Assembly (NCBI GenBank): GCA_030432565.1
Contig: JAUIGV010000040.1
Coordinates: 1-42,339, forward strand
Source of the DNA: Verrucomicrobiia bacterium
GTDB taxonomy: Bacteria > Verrucomicrobiota > Verrucomicrobiia > Verrucomicrobiales > Akkermansiaceae
Length of the DNA stretch: 42,339 nucleotides
Direction of reading: 5' to 3'
The number at the start of each line of letters is the position of its first letter. Positions within the stretch are counted from its first letter, which is position 1. The notes under the pieces were generated by a model. It had not been told where the DNA came from, made no database searches, and worked only from the letters and a program-made list of their open reading frames with translations. The position numbers and the translations under genes are program-made. Of this stretch, positions 3,718-14,839 are shown one piece after another.

Positions 3718-5001
3718 TCATTTCGCGCAGGTCCGGAAGCCGGTAAAGACATCGGTTCGCCCCGGGAGATAGGCTTGCCGGTAGCTGTTGCGGATTAGTC
3801 CCGAGGAAGTCGCGCAGGATCCCCCCTTGGTGACACGATGATCGCCAAACTGGAGAACCGACATATAGTGATACATGTCGATCTCAAATCCCGCATAAGG
3901 CAGGAACTGGTTTGAAGTCCACTCCCATGCGGTCCCCACCATCTGGAGACAACCTGATTCACTGGCCCCCTCCTCGAAAGCACTTGCCGGAGCAGTGCCA
4001 AAATAAGTTCCATCCATATCCACTTTTGAAGAAGCGATCGCAGTTCGCCCCCACGGGAAATCAAGTGCTCCCGTTCCACGTGCCGCCGCTTCCCATTCCT
4101 GCTCGGTTGGCAGCCGCCGCCCTGACCAGCGGCAAAAGGCCTCCGCCTCGAAGACACTCACGTGTAACACCGGAGCATCGGGCGGAAGCACCTCCCAGCG
4201 ATCAAACTTTCGATGTCGAAACGAGCCGTCGTCCTCTCTCCGCCAATACTCCGGCATTCCCCGTACTTCCTCCGGGCGATCCGCCAACCAACATCGGCCT
4301 CCAAAATCCCAAAGCTTCTCGTTCTGATATCCCCCACCCTCCACAAACTGCAGAAACTCACCATTTGTCACCAGGGTTTTTGAAATCTCGAACGGGTCTA
4401 CTTCAACCCGATGCCCCGGCCGTTCATTGTCAAAGCTAAACTCACCCGATGAAAGAGGGGGCTTTCCGATAAAAAACTCACCACCGTCAATCTTCGCATC
4501 CCCCGAAACACAGGAAGCCTGCGGCACCGCAAGCTCTCCCTGATGAAGATCTGGTTTCGGATAGCCCAGAGTTTGGCGGGCCCAAATGAGTGACTCAAGA
4601 TGCATCTGGTGGTGATGAATCACATAGCGAAAAAGATAGCGCTCCTTCCCGCTGATCTCACCCCTTGTCAAACGTTGACGAGCCTCGGCAATCACCCCGC
4701 CGTAGTATTCAAGCATCCGGCTCTTCTCCGGCACCACACCCGGCGTCCAGCGATGTTTGTGCGAGATTTCAAAAGAGTCCCAAATGTCATCATACCCCGG
4801 CATACGGGCATGATTTCCAGCTAATTCGCGGAGCAGGAAATACTCATAAAAGAATGCCACATGTCCCAGCTCCCAAACCGGCGGATTGATTCCACGAGAA
4901 TAGGGCACGGCGAGTTGTGAGTCATCCAGATCATCGAGCAAAGCCCGGGCCCGCCGATCCACCTCGTCCAGCTCTCTGACAATCTCTTCCTGACAATTCA
5001 T
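3718..5001 (-). CDS. EgtB/SenA-type non-haem iron sulfoxide synthase (DinB_2 + FGE-sulfatase domains)
   Basis: The family uses non-haem iron and O2 to join a sulfur (EgtB, OvoA) or selenium (SenA) donor to the imidazole of hercynine or histidine. Numbering from the ATG at 5001 (427 aa), the N-terminal DinB-like domain has WELGH (H47) and an HxxxH pair (H130, H134). The 83- and 4-residue spacing equals that remembered for the iron ligands of mycobacterial EgtB (H51, H134, H138). The C-terminal formylglycine-enzyme-like domain has RRLPTEQEWEAAARG, WEWTSNQF and GGSCATSSGLIRNSYRQ, which are typical of the family. The NPPVWELGHVAFFYEY stretch resembles what I recall of SenA more than EgtB's WHLAH pattern, so the donor is undecided. 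No EgtD, SenB or SenC gene is in the window. Start: a TTG at 5058 with GGAGAG upstream is possible, but the ATG at 5001 follows GGGGA closely and fits the domain start. It is divergent from a rhodanese gene. Confidence 0.85.
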   Translation of the reverse strand: MNCQEEIVRELDEVDRRARALLDDLDDSQLAVPYSRGINPPVWELGHVAFFYEYFLLRELAGNHARMPGYDDIWDSFEISHKHRWTPGVVPEKSRMLEYYGGVIAEARQRLTRGEISGKERYLFRYVIHHHQMHLESLIWARQTLGYPKPDLHQGELAVPQASCVSGDAKIDGGEFFIGKPPLSSGEFSFDNERPGHRVEVDPFEISKTLVTNGEFLQFVEGGGYQNEKLWDFGGRCWLADRPEEVRGMPEYWRREDDGSFRHRKFDRWEVLPPDAPVLHVSVFEAEAFCRWSGRRLPTEQEWEAAARGTGALDFPWGRTAIASSKVDMDGTYFGTAPASAFEEGASESGCLQMVGTAWEWTSNQFLPYAGFEIDMYHYMSVLQFGDHRVTKGGSCATSSGLIRNSYRQAYLPGRTDVFTGFRTCAK

Positions 5002-5174
5002 AGATTCCCCATCGGTTTCATACCCTCTTAGTTCATCCAAGTTGGCTTCAATCTTCAAGGGATAAACTTCTCTCCGATTTCCACCACCCCTCGTCGACTA
5101 AGAAAAAACTGGAAATATTGCCGGACGAGAGAACTCTAACATCCGGCAGCGGGCATTCACCACTCCGATCATCG

Positions 5175-6206
5175 ATGAAACTGGAACCAGCAAACACAGG
5201 CGAATTTCTCCAGGGCACCTTCCTCAGTCACCCGGGGTGCTTACATGACGAGGAACAGTTCGCTTTGGTCGGACCGGAATATTTGCTGGAAGCCCAAAGT
5301 TCCGCGGCAGATTCCGGTGATCTCATCGTGCTGGAAGCGCACTTCTCCTCGGTCGACCACCCCCTCGATCCTGAGATGCCCGTCTTTCGACATATCCCCG
5401 GAGCGGTTCAGATTCACCCCTCGTATCTGGAGGCCGGACTGAATCGCGAAAAGTATTATCCCCATTACGACCACCCCGAAGAGTCGAACATCATGAAGGG
5501 ACGCGCCCTTACGGATGCGCTCGAACATCTTGGCATCCACCCGGAGTCGACTGTCGTCGTCTACGGCAGTGACCCTGATGGCGTCATGGCGGCCGCCCGC
5601 CTGATCTGGGGGCTCATGTATGCCGGAGTCAAACGAGTCCGCCTTCTTGACGGAGGAATCGAAGCCTGGATCGGGCATGGCCAGACGGCTGAGATGAGCA
5701 TTACAAGTGTTTGGGATGTGATCACGCCACCACGCCGATCCTCATCATGGTCTCTTCAGGAGGGGTTTCTAGCCAGCTCGGAAGCAATCAGACAACACGT
5801 GGCAAATGCTTCGGATTCACCGGTCGGCAAATTGATCGACGTTCGGACCGATGGCGAGTGGAACGGCTCGACCCCTCAAAAATACACCTTCTTTTCACGA
5901 GCCGGACACATTCCCGGTGCCATTCATCAAGGGGATTGGGACAACCTCCTCGATGGGACTTCAAAGCGCCTTGCCCGGCACCTTGCCGTCGTTGCCCGAC
6001 GCTGGCGCGACCAGGGCATCATCGACCCCGAGGTCGAGGATGGCAAGACGCCCCTGACCTTTTACTGCGGCACCGGCTGGCGCTCGAGCATCGCGTTTCT
6101 TGTCGCCCACCTCCTCGGCCTACGCTCCCAAAATTACGAGGAAGGGTTCTTTGGCTGGTCGCATTACCCGGAACATCCTGTTGAGCGCCCCAGCACCCTC
6201 GACTAG
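5175..6206 (+). CDS. Two-domain rhodanese-family sulfurtransferase with CGTGWR active loop
   Basis: Rhodaneses carry a persulfide on an active-site cysteine. Numbered from the ATG at 5175 (343 aa), the N-terminal domain (about 30-165) lacks a cysteine at the loop position (VVVYGSDPDGVMAA), as in typical tandem rhodaneses. The C-terminal domain (about 195-335) has LIDVRTDGEW, GHIPGAIHQG and the active loop FYCGTGWRSS with Cys298. This loop differs from the CGSGVTA of mercaptopyruvate sulfurtransferases. A Tyr-Cys-Gly-Thr-Gly-Trp-Arg order agrees with my memory of EanB, the green sulfur bacterial enzyme that sulfurates hercynine with polysulfide (Y411, C412, T414), but EanB is longer, so this is a lead and not an assignment. 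A TTG at 5118 would add 19 residues; neither start has a strong ribosome site. It sits head to head with the EgtB-like gene and probably shares its promoter region. Confidence 0.85.
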   Translation: MKLEPANTGEFLQGTFLSHPGCLHDEEQFALVGPEYLLEAQSSAADSGDLIVLEAHFSSVDHPLDPEMPVFRHIPGAVQIHPSYLEAGLNREKYYPHYDHPEESNIMKGRALTDALEHLGIHPESTVVVYGSDPDGVMAAARLIWGLMYAGVKRVRLLDGGIEAWIGHGQTAEMSITSVWDVITPPRRSSSWSLQEGFLASSEAIRQHVANASDSPVGKLIDVRTDGEWNGSTPQKYTFFSRAGHIPGAIHQGDWDNLLDGTSKRLARHLAVVARRWRDQGIIDPEVEDGKTPLTFYCGTGWRSSIAFLVAHLLGLRSQNYEEGFFGWSHYPEHPVERPSTLD

Positions 6207-9915: not shown

Positions 9916-11046
9916 TTGCTTCCGTTTCGCTGCCGTTCGAGTTTCGTCGTGGCTGTGGATATATTTTTACTCGTTACCTACCTGCTGATTGCGCTGGTTT
10001 TTTCGTTCCTTTGCTCGGTCTTTGAGGCCGTCCTCCTAAGTGTCCGGCGACCCTACATTGAAACTCAAAAAGAAGATAAGCCGCACAATGCAGCCGTTTG
10101 GGATGCTCTCGCAAACGACATCAACCGCCCATTATCGGCCATCCTCATCTTGAACACGGTCGCCCACACCGTGGGCGCTGCCGGCGTAGGAGCCCAGGCC
10201 ATGAAAATCTTTGGTGATGCCCCGTTGACGACCGGTATCATTTCAGCAGTCCTGACTCTTCTCATCCTAATTCTTTCCGAGATCATTCCGAAAACCCTTG
10301 GTGCCGTGTATTGGAAGCAACTGGCCCCGTCAACCGGGGTCATGCTCACCACCCTCACCAGGATCATGTCACCACTCATCTGGATCACTGAGAAAATCAC
10401 CAGTGGGATTTCCGGGGGCAAGAAAAAGGGAGCCTTTAGCCGTGCCGAGTTTATTGCGATGGCCGATGTCGGAGAAAAGGAAGGCGCCATCGAAGAAAGT
10501 GAAGGGCGGATCATGAAAAACCTCTTTGGCTTGCGGGAAATGCTGGCAAGACACGCAGCCACCCCCCGGACCGTGGTCTTTGCTTTGCCGGAGACGTGTA
10601 CCATTGACGAGTTTATGACTACCCATTCCGACACACCGTTTTCACGAATCCCGATCTATGAGACAAGCATGGATCACGTGAGTGGGTTCGTGCTCAAGGT
10701 TGATCTCTTCCAGGCAAAGGCCGAAGGCCGGTCGGAACGCACCTTGGCTGAATTTAAGCGACCCCTCCACACTATTCCCAACACCCAAAATCTCTCCGAT
10801 CTTTTCAACAGCATGATCGCCGACCAGATCCACATCGCCGCAACTCTCGATGAATTCGGCTCCTTTGCCGGACTCATTACCCTCGAAGACGTCATCGAAA
10901 CCCTTCTCGGAATCGAAATCATTGATGAGGTCGATGATACCGAAGACATGCAGCAGAAGGCTCGCGATCTCTGGAAAAAACGTGCCAAAAAAATGGGCAT
11001 CGAACTGGCTGAATTCGACACCACAGAAGACGACTCAAACGTATGA
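9916..11046 (+). CDS. CNNM/CorC-type membrane protein (DUF21 + CBS pair)
   Basis: A protein of 376 aa. The DUF21 membrane domain (about residues 14-175) has four hydrophobic segments, including VDIFLLVTYLLIALVFSF and GIISAVLTLLILILSEIIPK with the family's SEIIPK signature. A CBS-domain pair follows (about 215-340, with SRIPIYE, GFVLKVDLF and GLITLEDVIETLLG). Family members are linked to Mg2+ or Co2+ transport or efflux, or to membrane integrity. The usual C-terminal CorC_HlyC domain is absent; the protein ends in a charged tail (DLWKKRAKKMGIELAEFDTT). The TTG at 9916 has GGAG 9 bases upstream; GTG at 9949 or 9955 are alternatives closer to the first membrane segment. Its stop overlaps the ATG of the following sulfatase in ATGA, suggesting co-translation. 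Confidence 0.87.
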   Translation: MLPFRCRSSFVVAVDIFLLVTYLLIALVFSFLCSVFEAVLLSVRRPYIETQKEDKPHNAAVWDALANDINRPLSAILILNTVAHTVGAAGVGAQAMKIFGDAPLTTGIISAVLTLLILILSEIIPKTLGAVYWKQLAPSTGVMLTTLTRIMSPLIWITEKITSGISGGKKKGAFSRAEFIAMADVGEKEGAIEESEGRIMKNLFGLREMLARHAATPRTVVFALPETCTIDEFMTTHSDTPFSRIPIYETSMDHVSGFVLKVDLFQAKAEGRSERTLAEFKRPLHTIPNTQNLSDLFNSMIADQIHIAATLDEFGSFAGLITLEDVIETLLGIEIIDEVDDTEDMQQKARDLWKKRAKKMGIELAEFDTTEDDSNV

Positions 11047-12497
11047 AACACTCAAAGCTCCAACTCCTGGTGAGCGCCGCCATGCTCATCTCCACCAGCC
11101 TGGTCAATGGTAAGCCCAACATTCTTTTCATCGCCGTTGACGATCTGAGGCCCGAACTCCGGTGCTACGGCAACAAGGACATCCACTCGCCAAATATCGA
11201 TGCCCTGGCGGCACGTGGCACCCTCTTCGAACGTAGCTACTGTCAGGTTGCGGTTTGTGGTGCCTCGCGCGCCAGCCTCATGACCGGCCTGCGCCCGCAA
11301 ACAACCCGCTGCTGGAACTACAAAACGCCGATGCGTGAGATGAATCCCGACGCCCTTTCGATGCCACAATACTTCAAAACTCACGGCTACGAGACGATTT
11401 CCATTGGCAAGATCTACCACGCCACCAACGACGATTTCCCGCAAGGTTGGTCCGAGAAGCCCTTGCGAGGATTGGGCAAACAGTACGCTTCGCCCGCAGG
11501 TATCGCTGCTCATAAAAAGGCGACCCGGATCCAGAGGGAAACCGGCGTTCGCTCCAATGGCCCTGCCAGTGAAAATGGCGGAAATGTCGATGATGACGTT
11601 TACAACGACGGCGGGGTCGCCAAGGCCGCGACAGGGCGCATCCGGCAATTTGCCATCTCCGGCAAGCCATTCTTTCTAGCGGTTGGTTTTTCAAAACCGC
11701 ATCTTCCTTTCAATGCGCCCGGAAAATACTGGGACCTCTACAAACGCGAGGACATTAAAATCCCTTCCCGCGACAAAATGATCAATGGGCTTGGATATGA
11801 TGGCTCCACCTGGGGAGAACTTAAAAACTACTCAGACATTTCAAAGAAGGCCAAAGTTCTCGATGATGCCCAAACCCGTGAACTCATCCATGGATACCGC
11901 GCGGCAGTGAGCTACATGGATGCGCAGGTCGGTCGGCTCATGAAGACGCTCGACGAAACCGGACTGACCAAAAATACCATCATCGTCCTCTGGGGTGATC
12001 ATGGATACTACCTCGGCGACTACGGCGAATGGTGCAAGCACACGACATACGAGATCGCGACCAGGGTCCCGCTCATTGTTGTCGCACCCGGCCAAAAGAA
12101 GGGACAACAAACCAAAGCGCTCGCCGAATTGGTCGACCTCTTCCCAACTCTTTGCGAGCTCACTGAATTGCCTGTCCCCGAAAATCTTCACGGAGCATCT
12201 CTCAAACCACTTTTGACAAACCCGAACGCTCCCTGGAAAAGAGGGGCCTTCAGCCAATACTTCAAAGGAAAACCGGGCACAGGCAAAGTCCTCGGAACAA
12301 GCCTGCGAACGGACCGCTATCGCTACACCGAGTGGCGAAAAAATGATCACACCGGCAAACTCGAGGACATCACTCTCATCGACTTCCAGGGAGACCCGAA
12401 AAAGAACGTCGCAGCCGATCCCGCCCACAAAGAGCTCATCAAGGAATTGGCAAGGCTCACCAAGAATTCCGGAGCCGGTTTGAAGCCCCAACCCTAA
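11043..12497 (+). CDS. Sulfatase, iduronate-2-sulfatase-like
   Basis: A protein of 484 aa with a signal peptide (residues 1-23, ending LVNG). It belongs to the alkaline phosphatase/sulfatase superfamily: metal-binding D33-D34 in NILFIAVDDLRPELRCYG, the formylglycine signature C72-GASRASLMTG (Cys-type, matured by a formylglycine-generating or anaerobic enzyme), KPHLPFNAP, and WGDHGYYLGDYGEW supplying further metal and active-site residues. The DDLRPELxCYG and PHLPF motifs point to the iduronate-2-sulfatase branch (S1_7 style) rather than plain arylsulfatase. It likely removes sulfate from a polysaccharide in the periplasm; the substrate is unknown. It is coupled by a 4-base overlap to the upstream DUF21/CBS gene. 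Its TAA overlaps the TAG of the convergent Fic gene. Confidence 0.92.
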   Translation: MKHSKLQLLVSAAMLISTSLVNGKPNILFIAVDDLRPELRCYGNKDIHSPNIDALAARGTLFERSYCQVAVCGASRASLMTGLRPQTTRCWNYKTPMREMNPDALSMPQYFKTHGYETISIGKIYHATNDDFPQGWSEKPLRGLGKQYASPAGIAAHKKATRIQRETGVRSNGPASENGGNVDDDVYNDGGVAKAATGRIRQFAISGKPFFLAVGFSKPHLPFNAPGKYWDLYKREDIKIPSRDKMINGLGYDGSTWGELKNYSDISKKAKVLDDAQTRELIHGYRAAVSYMDAQVGRLMKTLDETGLTKNTIIVLWGDHGYYLGDYGEWCKHTTYEIATRVPLIVVAPGQKKGQQTKALAELVDLFPTLCELTELPVPENLHGASLKPLLTNPNAPWKRGAFSQYFKGKPGTGKVLGTSLRTDRYRYTEWRKNDHTGKLEDITLIDFQGDPKKNVAADPAHKELIKELARLTKNSGAGLKPQP

Positions 12498-13318: not shown

Positions 13319-14839
13319 TTAATGAGAGGTTGAATCGGTTCGACCCGACTTCTTCGACTCCTCAAGAAGAGTCTTCAACTTGGTGACAATCTCTGGATGC
13401 TTTGAGTAAAGGTTTACCGTTTCACCCGGATCCGTCTTTAAATTGTAGAGCTGACCAGGAGCGTCCGGATCAGTATCGGGAATAGCATACTGCCCCATCG
13501 ACCATTCGTTTTTCTTCTCGTAGTTGTTTCCACCTGATCCCTTGTGGTCGATATACTTCCAATCACCCTGACGGATCGAGAGCTTCATCGCAAAGGTCTG
13601 TTGCAAGAGATAAGGCCGAATTGGTTTTTCATTTTTTTCACCTTTGAGGACCGGGCTGAGATCGAAACTATCTTCGCCCGCGGAATCAGGAACCCGAGCG
13701 CCGATGGTCTTTGCGCACGTCGCAAAAACATCGGTGAGACTTACGATTTCGTCGCTCGTAGACCCCGGCTTCACCACTCCGGGCCACCTCACGATGAAGG
13801 GGGTGCGATGCCCGCCTTCCCACTGGTCACGCTTCACACCGCGCCAGGGTCTTGCCCCATCGTGCCCGTGATCACGCCGCATCGCGATCACCGAGGGAAC
13901 CTCCGGCCCATTGTCAGAGCCAAACATCACGATGGTGTTTTCTGCGACCCCAAGATCATCGAGGGTCTTCATCAGGTCTCCGACGATCCAGTCCATCTGA
14001 TAAATAAAGTCTCCGTGCGGTCCCGAGCCAGATTTCCCTTGAAATTGCTTCGCGGGAAATGAAGGAAGGTGAACGGCCTGCATCGAGTGCATCAGGAAAA
14101 ATGGCCTGTCGGGCGACTCTTTCACCCGGGCTTTCAGGAAGGCTTTGCTCTTATCGAGAAAAACGAGATCCACTTCCTCCAAATTGAAATTGGGAGCAAT
14201 CATACCCGGGCGGCAGTCGTTTGCGTATGGATGTTTTGGCAGTGCGCTTTTATCGATCTGCTTGGTGGGAGGCACCGGGACGCGATTACCATCGATGTAG
14301 GCATAAAGCCAATCGGTGGTGGGGCAGCAGGCAGTCCCGTAAAATTCATCAAACCCGAATTCCACAGGAGACCCGCCCACCGGCTTTGAGTAATCGATCT
14401 GCTGCACTCCCTTCAAGCCCATATCGCTGATACGCTCCCCCTTCTTGTCAAAGAAGCTCATCCCAACATGCCACTTTCCAAACAGGGCGGTGGAGTAGCC
14501 CTTCGTCTTCAACATCGCAGGAAGAGTGAGACGATCTTTTTCGATCAAGCAGGGACCCCCGACACCCGAAAAAACACGCGAGCGACCGGTCCGAAAACAC
14601 ATCCGCCCGGTCAGTAAACTATAGCGCGTCGGTGTGCAGACCGTTGCCGGGCTGTGGGCATCAGTGAAGCGCATACCCTCGCTTGCGAGCTTATCCAGAT
14701 TCGGAGTCGGAATCTTCGAGGTCGGATTGTAACAAGCGAGGTCGCCATAACCCAGATCGTCCGCGAGGATGAAAACGATGTTCGGAGTCGCCGCGACGGC
14801 AACCTGAAACAATCCCACAAGGGCAGCAAGCAATCTCAT
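13319..14839 (-). CDS. Arylsulfatase-like sulfatase
   Basis: A protein of 506 aa with a short signal peptide (residues 1-17, ending VAVAA). D27-D28 in IVFILADDLGYGDLACY bind the metal, and C68-TPTRYSLLTGR is the Cys-type formylglycine signature. ALFGKWHVG carries the conserved Lys and His, and MFGSDNGPE the further Asp-Asn metal ligands. The C-terminal part has the usual QLYNLKTDPGETVNLYSKHP closing motif. It is longer than many family members because of inserts around CCPTTDWLYAYIDG. A periplasmic sulfate-ester hydrolase is expected; the substrate cannot be named. AGGA lies about 8 bases before the ATG. It lies 98 bases after ccsA and 6 bases before the Fic gene, so it may be part of a longer minus-strand transcript. 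Confidence 0.93.
   Translation of the reverse strand: MRLLAALVGLFQVAVAATPNIVFILADDLGYGDLACYNPTSKIPTPNLDKLASEGMRFTDAHSPATVCTPTRYSLLTGRMCFRTGRSRVFSGVGGPCLIEKDRLTLPAMLKTKGYSTALFGKWHVGMSFFDKKGERISDMGLKGVQQIDYSKPVGGSPVEFGFDEFYGTACCPTTDWLYAYIDGNRVPVPPTKQIDKSALPKHPYANDCRPGMIAPNFNLEEVDLVFLDKSKAFLKARVKESPDRPFFLMHSMQAVHLPSFPAKQFQGKSGSGPHGDFIYQMDWIVGDLMKTLDDLGVAENTIVMFGSDNGPEVPSVIAMRRDHGHDGARPWRGVKRDQWEGGHRTPFIVRWPGVVKPGSTSDEIVSLTDVFATCAKTIGARVPDSAGEDSFDLSPVLKGEKNEKPIRPYLLQQTFAMKLSIRQGDWKYIDHKGSGGNNYEKKNEWSMGQYAIPDTDPDAPGQLYNLKTDPGETVNLYSKHPEIVTKLKTLLEESKKSGRTDSTSH

Follow-up and report, generated by a model that had tools for sequence, protein, structure and literature searches.

A probable OvsA-type selenoxide synthase with scattered, probable partner genes in a member of the Verrucomicrobiota

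What chemistry is encoded by a sulfoxide-synthase-like gene that stands head to head with a tandem rhodanese in a bacterium of the family Akkermansiaceae (Verrucomicrobiota)? The two genes lie on contig JAUIGV010000040.1 of assembly GCA_030432565.1, a stretch of 42,339 nucleotides that is referred to here as the window. An initial annotation, made from the letters of this window, proposed a route to a thio- or selenoimidazole in which the synthase, likened to EgtB and SenA, might cooperate with the rhodanese, the latter supplying sulfane sulfur, substituting for a C-S lyase or providing an anoxic alternative in the manner of EanB. Here we report that sequence, tree, fold and active site most likely place the synthase (P0001) with OvsA, the selenoxide synthase that acts on histidine in ovoselenol formation; a role in making ergothioneine or selenoneine is improbable. 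The rhodanese (P0002) looks like a mostly accidental neighbour and not a necessary part of the pathway.

OvsA was reportedly described in 2024 by Kayrouz in Nat Chem. In the selenoneine pathway, SenB transfers selenium to a UDP-sugar (PMC10891094, in excerpt) and SenA joins the selenosugar to hercynine, the resulting selenoxide being reported to fragment unaided (PMC10903977, in excerpt). For ovoselenol, the methylation of 5-selenohistidine by OvsM and the C5 attachment site are taken from the name under which OvsM is deposited in the PDB.

Identity and substrate of the synthase

The synthase-like frame spans window positions 3718-5058 on the reverse strand and encodes 446 residues from a TTG at 5058, its first ATG being M20 at base 5001; residues are numbered below from the longer frame. 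It contains the Pfam domains DinB_2 and FGE-sulfatase. In a sequence search of the PDB, P0001 scored 420 bits against OvsA (8u41), 200 against EgtB and 177 against SenA. Against NCBIfam it reached 417 bits with the SenA model (cut-off 420), 279 with EgtB and 133 with OvoA. The SenA model cannot tell SenA from OvsA, for an OvsA-type protein from locus L118, which is the sister of PDB OvsA in our synthase tree, scores 430 bits and thus passes its cut-off.

Related genes were collected from 80 loci, of which 56 are proteobacterial (one titled Thiobacillus, L115) and 24 come from Verrucomicrobiota and Planctomycetota, counting among the latter a locus titled just Bacterium that falls within the genus of the window (L084). 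Eight of these loci, L080-L085, L097 and L111, belong to the same genomes as G021, G004, G005, G009, G002, G006, G033 and G039 of the genome set, in which the genome of the window is G000. In the synthase tree, which used 14 of the 56 proteobacterial rows and drew a program warning for its long reference branches, P0001, the 24 Verrucomicrobiota/Planctomycetota rows, 14 gammaproteobacterial rows and PDB OvsA share one side of a branch with 93/90 support, marginally below the program's star; three SenA-type, seven EgtB-type and one OvoA rows occupy the other. The sister of P0001 is L080 (99/95). The reference labels EgtB-type for a Nocardia row without annotation, and SenA-like for a Hydrogenophaga protein annotated as SUMF1/EgtB/PvdO family, are our own.

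A predicted model of P0001 aligned best with OvsA, with Z 34.8 (8u42; rmsd 2.6 over 380 aligned residues), 34.4 (8u41, with histidine) and 34.1 (8ux5), compared with 31.9 for EgtB (4x8b), 27.5 for SenA (8ryz) and about 12 for formylglycine enzymes. A plain SUMF1/FGE protein was rejected on these grounds, given the DinB_2 domain, FGE scores of at most 80 bits and a Z of about 12 against 34.8 for OvsA. The earlier placement of the gene among non-heme-iron synthases of the EgtB/SenA superfamily, and not among plain SUMF proteins, is thus upheld by domain content, PDB scores, tree and fold.

The active site narrows the assignment further. The H47/H130/H134 spacing of iron ligands noted initially was borne out when counted from the first ATG (Table 1), the 12 reference rows used for this count being EgtB, SenA, OvoA and OvsA proteins. 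A second motif, W/Y-D-S-x4-H-x2-R-W, is common to P0001, OvsA and three SenA-type rows, and no EgtB-type row of the seven has it in full; it is read here as the putative selenosugar side of the active site. On the opposite side, the title of PDB entry 8ux5 describes OvsA M401Y/Q430N/A431F as a hercynine-binding variant with selenoneine-biosynthetic activity. Within the aligned stretch 8ux5 and 8u41 differ at three positions, which match M399, Q428 and A429 of P0001. The M-Q-A triad is found in P0001 and 79 of the 80 related loci, the remaining one (L093) having M-Q-S; at these positions Y-N-F or Y-N-W is found in Variovorax SenA, in the Hydrogenophaga SenA-like protein and in the seven EgtB-type rows, and F-Y-A in OvoA. 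The Methylorubrum plasmid SenA was omitted from this count, its C-terminus being missing: on Methylorubrum populi plasmid pMPOP01 (L160:4037-6030) the annotated senA stops at an IS6-type element, with the C-terminal active-site part gone, and is probably broken.

A search for the hercynine-forming methyltransferase EgtD (PF10017) gave no match in the genome of the window, which is 97.3% complete, and none in the 24 Verrucomicrobiota/Planctomycetota OvsA genomes searched; three of nine gammaproteobacterial ones were positive. With no EgtD found, the genome has no apparent route to hercynine, and the triad together with this result leads us to infer that the predicted substrate of P0001 is histidine, not hercynine. 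A selenoneine (SenA) or ergothioneine (EgtB) synthase living on imported hercynine would have in its favour the near-threshold score with the SenA model, which the OvsA-type L118 protein also passes, and the W/Y-D-S...H..R-W motif common to P0001 and SenA. We hold this to be very improbable and rejected action on hercynine, since M-Q-A stands where Y-N-F/W would be expected, EgtD was not found, and OvsA is nearest in tree and fold. Of the thio- or selenoimidazole route first proposed, the seleno branch is likely to stand, and hercynine as its substrate is not supported.

Two gammaproteobacterial loci carry, near OvsA and on the opposite strand, a second divergent member of the same similarity cluster (L104:10515-11831 and L105:9462-10778); the L104 genome also carries EgtD.

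Table 1. Positions of the synthase, its predicted active-site features and the neighbouring rhodanese in the window
Feature	Position	Strand	Basis and remarks
Probable OvsA-type selenoxide synthase (P0001)	3718..5001	-	427 aa from ATG 5001; PDB match, tree, fold, NCBIfam
His66 (H47 from ATG), predicted iron ligand	4861..4863	-	kept in 80/80 loci and 12/12 references
His149 and His153 (H130, H134), predicted iron ligands	4600..4614	-	kept in 80/80 loci and 12/12 references
W93-D-S-F-x3-H100-x2-R-W104 motif	4747..4782	-	W93, D94, S95, H100, R103 and W104 in 80/80 loci
Met399, equivalent of OvsA M401 (Tyr in EgtB/SenA references)	3862..3864	-	alignment; 8ux5 title
Gln428-Ala429, equivalent of OvsA Q430-A431 (Asn-Phe/Trp in readable EgtB/SenA references)	3772..3777	-	alignment; 8ux5 title
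Tandem rhodanese (P0002)	5175..6206	+	frame opens at TTG 5118; divergent neighbour, probably outside the pathway
Rhodanese active loop C317-G-T-G-W-R322	6066..6083	+	translation, alignments

Probable partner genes, scattered over the genome, and the supply of selenosugar

It is likely, judging from gene content and homology, that P0001 is an OvsA-type enzyme acting on histidine and a selenosugar in the first step toward ovoselenol, with SelD, a SenB-type glycosyltransferase and an OvsM-like methyltransferase as unlinked partners. In such a pathway SelD (contig C73) would make selenophosphate, and the SenB-type enzyme (C77) would move selenium onto a UDP-sugar to give a 1-selenosugar. P0001 (C57, the contig of the window), dependent on iron and O2, would couple the selenium of this sugar to the imidazole C5 of unmodified L-histidine, the selenoxide would fall apart to 5-selenohistidine, and the OvsM-like enzyme (C28) would convert the latter to ovoselenol. 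All four genes are present in the genome and none is linked to another. The initial annotation had found neither EgtD nor SenB in the window, and this was confirmed; the SenB-type gene and SelD, lying on other contigs, came to light in whole-genome searches, which did not cover EgtE. We infer the use of histidine and selenosugar by P0001, supply by the divergent SenB and ovoselenol as end product.

Partner genes were sought in 33 OvsA genomes (24 from Verrucomicrobiota/Planctomycetota and nine gammaproteobacterial, the L099 genome not being included) and in 14 controls. At E <=1e-40 the SenB family was found in 33/33 OvsA genomes, 16 of them above the family cut-off, and in 0/14 controls; at looser thresholds ordinary glycosyltransferases match in all 14 controls. 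In 20 of the 24 Verrucomicrobiota/Planctomycetota loci OvsA is immediately preceded by SenB on its own strand, one such operonic SenB being L082:7021-7995; the four exceptions are the three nearest relatives of the window and L092, which meets a contig end. A single in-frame TGA occurs close to the N-terminus of the operonic SenB of G039 (L059:1204-1206, codon 28 of the matched frame) and may reflect error, decay or recoding.

Methyltransferases of the TIGR04345 family were detected at E <=1e-20 in 32/33 OvsA genomes (17 above cut-off) and 1/14 controls, the only absentee, G005, being 80% complete. Such a gene immediately follows OvsA in 20 of the 56 proteobacterial loci, and one of these downstream genes scored 324 bits against a cut-off of 170. 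The copy in the genome of the window, at C28:28114-28818 and unlinked to OvsA, scored 171.6 bits; its best solved match is OvsM, the 5-selenohistidine N-methyltransferase (162 bits), followed by OvoM (135). Of the 23 Verrucomicrobiota/Planctomycetota genomes that matched, 20 had their neighbourhoods read, and these 20 copies were placed in a methyltransferase tree with 17 of 20 proteobacterial OvsA neighbours and two of five further copies. A small conserved protein precedes the OvsM-like gene in four of the 20 loci (L201:5264-6363, L208:4856-5997, L209:4582-5808 and L213:5353-6492), with a 4-base overlap in two of them; the L208 copy has a cupin domain. SelD of the window's genome scores above cut-off and has one in-frame TGA, predicted to encode selenocysteine.

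The clade of the window (G000, G004, G006 and G021) has no operonic SenB, and the sole SenB-family gene found there is of a divergent type, represented by P0003. This gene lies between cysS and the gene for an N-acetylhexosamine 1-kinase (NahK), the ends overlapping or close (L015:8365-12148). The order cysS - SenB-like - NahK recurs in 11/11 genus loci read, OvsA-less genomes included, out of 16 genus genomes having the P0003 type. The residue roles of Variovorax paradoxus SenB, with K158 proposed as catalytic, are taken from an excerpt of PMC10891094. In the P0003 type, 11 of 16 compared positions are identical to that enzyme in all 11 rows (N20, T23, H58, T83, T85, D86, R155, V157, K158, E231 and E239); R61 is replaced by K and H235 by N, Q131 and T214 are altered in all, and L209 is kept in 9/11. 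Among OvsA genomes of the genus, the P0003 type is present in 4/4 without operonic SenB and 0/3 with it (p 0.029; small numbers, kinship ignored), and across 58 relatives any SenB-family gene accompanies OvsA in 9/9 genomes, compared with 21/49 lacking OvsA (P0003 search, E 1e-15; p 0.0013, kinship ignored). The divergent SenB may supply OvsA in the clade of the window.

A number of observations weigh against the proposed pathway. On the side of the synthase, the AlphaFold model has a mean pLDDT of 71 and is poor over residues 373-422, the stretch containing Met399, and OvsA in the window's clade deviates at Q150 (H in 3/4) and S251 (D in 4/4), positions from which no clear account of the substrate could be drawn. 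On the side of the selenosugar, P0003 falls below the SenB-family cut-off (229 vs 300 bits), and its type forms a 100/100 clade; all SenB proteins of the tree that are partnered with SenA or OvsA fall across a 96/97 branch from it. The P0003 type also occurs in 12 of 20 OvsA-less genomes of the genus and its overall distribution does not follow that of OvsA (p 0.72), so that it must serve another purpose besides OvsA. OvsM-like genes are found in 0/24 Verrucomicrobiota/Planctomycetota OvsA loci and form a clade of their own in the methyltransferase tree, and the counts given above for this family include no OvsA-less Verrucomicrobiota among the controls. SelD was not found in two of nine OvsA-bearing relatives (G021 and G033).

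Several of these points would also fit an OvsA-type enzyme with a changed donor, in which the dedicated SenB was lost and selenium or sulfur comes from another small molecule such as a thiosugar, cysteine or selenocysteine: the four genomes of the clade lack the operonic gene, their remaining SenB-type gene is a distant relative also found without OvsA, and residues 150 and 251 have changed in this clade. We consider a changed donor improbable, in view of the D-S...H..R-W motif and M-Q-A triad retained in the clade, the identity of the P0003 type to V. paradoxus SenB at most compared positions, and its presence in just those OvsA genomes of the genus that have no operonic SenB.

A further proposal, offered as a rather unlikely speculation, is that the genus has a second, previously undescribed kind of Se-glycosyltransferase in the cysS - SenB-like - NahK operon, whose selenosugar serves an end other than selenoneine or ovoselenol, and that it took over the supply of OvsA in the window's clade with the loss of the original SenB. 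A mycothiol-like role for the operon's cysS was rejected, since no other cysS match in the genome comes near its 396 bits (the second-best scores 35); it is probably the housekeeping enzyme.

The neighbouring rhodanese

The second gene of the pair consists of two Pfam Rhodanese stretches. The two frames are as first described, divergent and with the named residues in place in reading frames, translations and Pfam matches, with 173 bp between the probable start codons, ATG 5001 and ATG 5175. The CGTGWR loop was likewise found in translation, within F-Y-C-G-T-G-W-R. The EanB residues used for comparison could be matched to the literature, Tyr353, Cys412 and Arg417 being given in an excerpt of PMC10903977 and Tyr353, Cys412 and Thr414 in an excerpt of PMC9103826; their equivalents in P0002, by alignment to Tyr353, Cys412, Thr414 and Arg417, are Y256, C317, T319 and R322. 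Among solved proteins P0002 matches EanB best (71.0 bits), with E. coli YnjE close behind (68.7), and both have the loop and the tyrosine. Since YnjE shares the loop, the latter is no evidence for EanB chemistry in P0002, and nothing in the comparison singles out EanB.

Could the rhodanese nevertheless pass sulfane sulfur to the synthase, or act as an anoxic, EanB-like alternative to it? The head-to-head arrangement in the window and in L080/G021 and the matching EanB residues speak for a link, as does co-occurrence within the genus, where the rhodanese is found in four of seven OvsA genomes and one of 20 others (p 0.009, one of the four being a fragment; kinship ignored). Yet adjacency outside the window is restricted to one of the 80 related loci, and in the genus the genes are adjacent in two of the seven; both traits also go with larger genomes (p 0.0035 and 0.011). 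The co-occurrence of the pair, which the initial annotation had asked about across Verrucomicrobiota, holds within the genus. P0002 homologues were found in six of 58 genomes, one fragment and one weak match included. In G018 (L078:5226-8784) and G009 (L079:4542-8212) they follow a sulfatase and a glycerophosphodiesterase, and in G021 a sulfatase follows the rhodanese. EanB pairs with EanA, an EgtD-type methyltransferase (PMC9103826, in excerpt); the search of the window's genome found no such partner, and hence no hercynine source for an EanB. With a selenosugar as the source of selenium, a lyase substitute would be unneeded, the SenA selenoxide reportedly fragmenting by itself (PMC10903977, in excerpt). 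We therefore rejected an EanB or lyase-substitute role for P0002, in view of an equally near YnjE, rare adjacency and no EgtD found, and consider a transfer of sulfur to the synthase, or an anoxic alternative, highly unlikely; the partnership first proposed is not upheld. Two further sulfatase genes lie in the window near the pair, at 11043-12497 and 13319-14839 (Pfam Sulfatase).

Significance and comparison with known systems

The enzyme kind is known; what is new here is an OvsA-type member with a scattered gene set and an apparently changed selenosugar supplier. Among the papers listed in the literature searches, none links these enzymes with Verrucomicrobiota, and the original phylum survey of OvsA may already include the group. 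The results indicate ovoselenol-type selenium chemistry in Verrucomicrobiota and Planctomycetota, whose compact senB-ovsA operon is a clean target for expression. The clade of the window offers a testable case in which a lost partner gene may have been replaced by a distant relative, and the cysS - SenB-like - NahK operon represents a possible selenosugar pathway. From a practical standpoint, oxygen-independent thioimidazole synthesis should not be deduced solely from a CGTGWR rhodanese next to an EgtB-like gene.

Compared with known systems, P0002 shares the CGTGWR loop and tyrosine with EanB (6h98) and YnjE (2wlr), but its shorter chain aligns with residues 180-436 of the former and 110-405 of the latter, and it is about equally near both. 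OvoA and OvoM (8khq, 9bxl) resemble the proposed system in their histidine substrate and in OvoM and OvsM belonging to one methyltransferase family, whereas OvoA is distant in the tree and has a different triad. EgtB (4x8b) has the same fold and iron ligands as P0001, but a Y-N-W triad and an incomplete D-S...H..R-W motif, and its partner enzyme EgtD was not found here. SenA of Variovorax (8ryz, 8k5i) shares fold, iron ligands and the D-S...H..R-W motif, but has a Y-N-F triad, acts on hercynine and scores 177 bits to P0001. The closest counterpart is OvsA of Halomonas utahensis (8u41, 8u42, 8ux5), which is alike in its iron histidines, M-Q-A triad, D-S...H..R-W motif and fold, with 48% similarity over the whole length. 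The difference lies in gene arrangement: neither senB nor ovsM stands beside the gene in the window, whereas on a Halomonadaceae contig (L118) senB, ovsA, a TIGR04345-type methyltransferase gene and an oppositely oriented SelD-type gene are consecutive.

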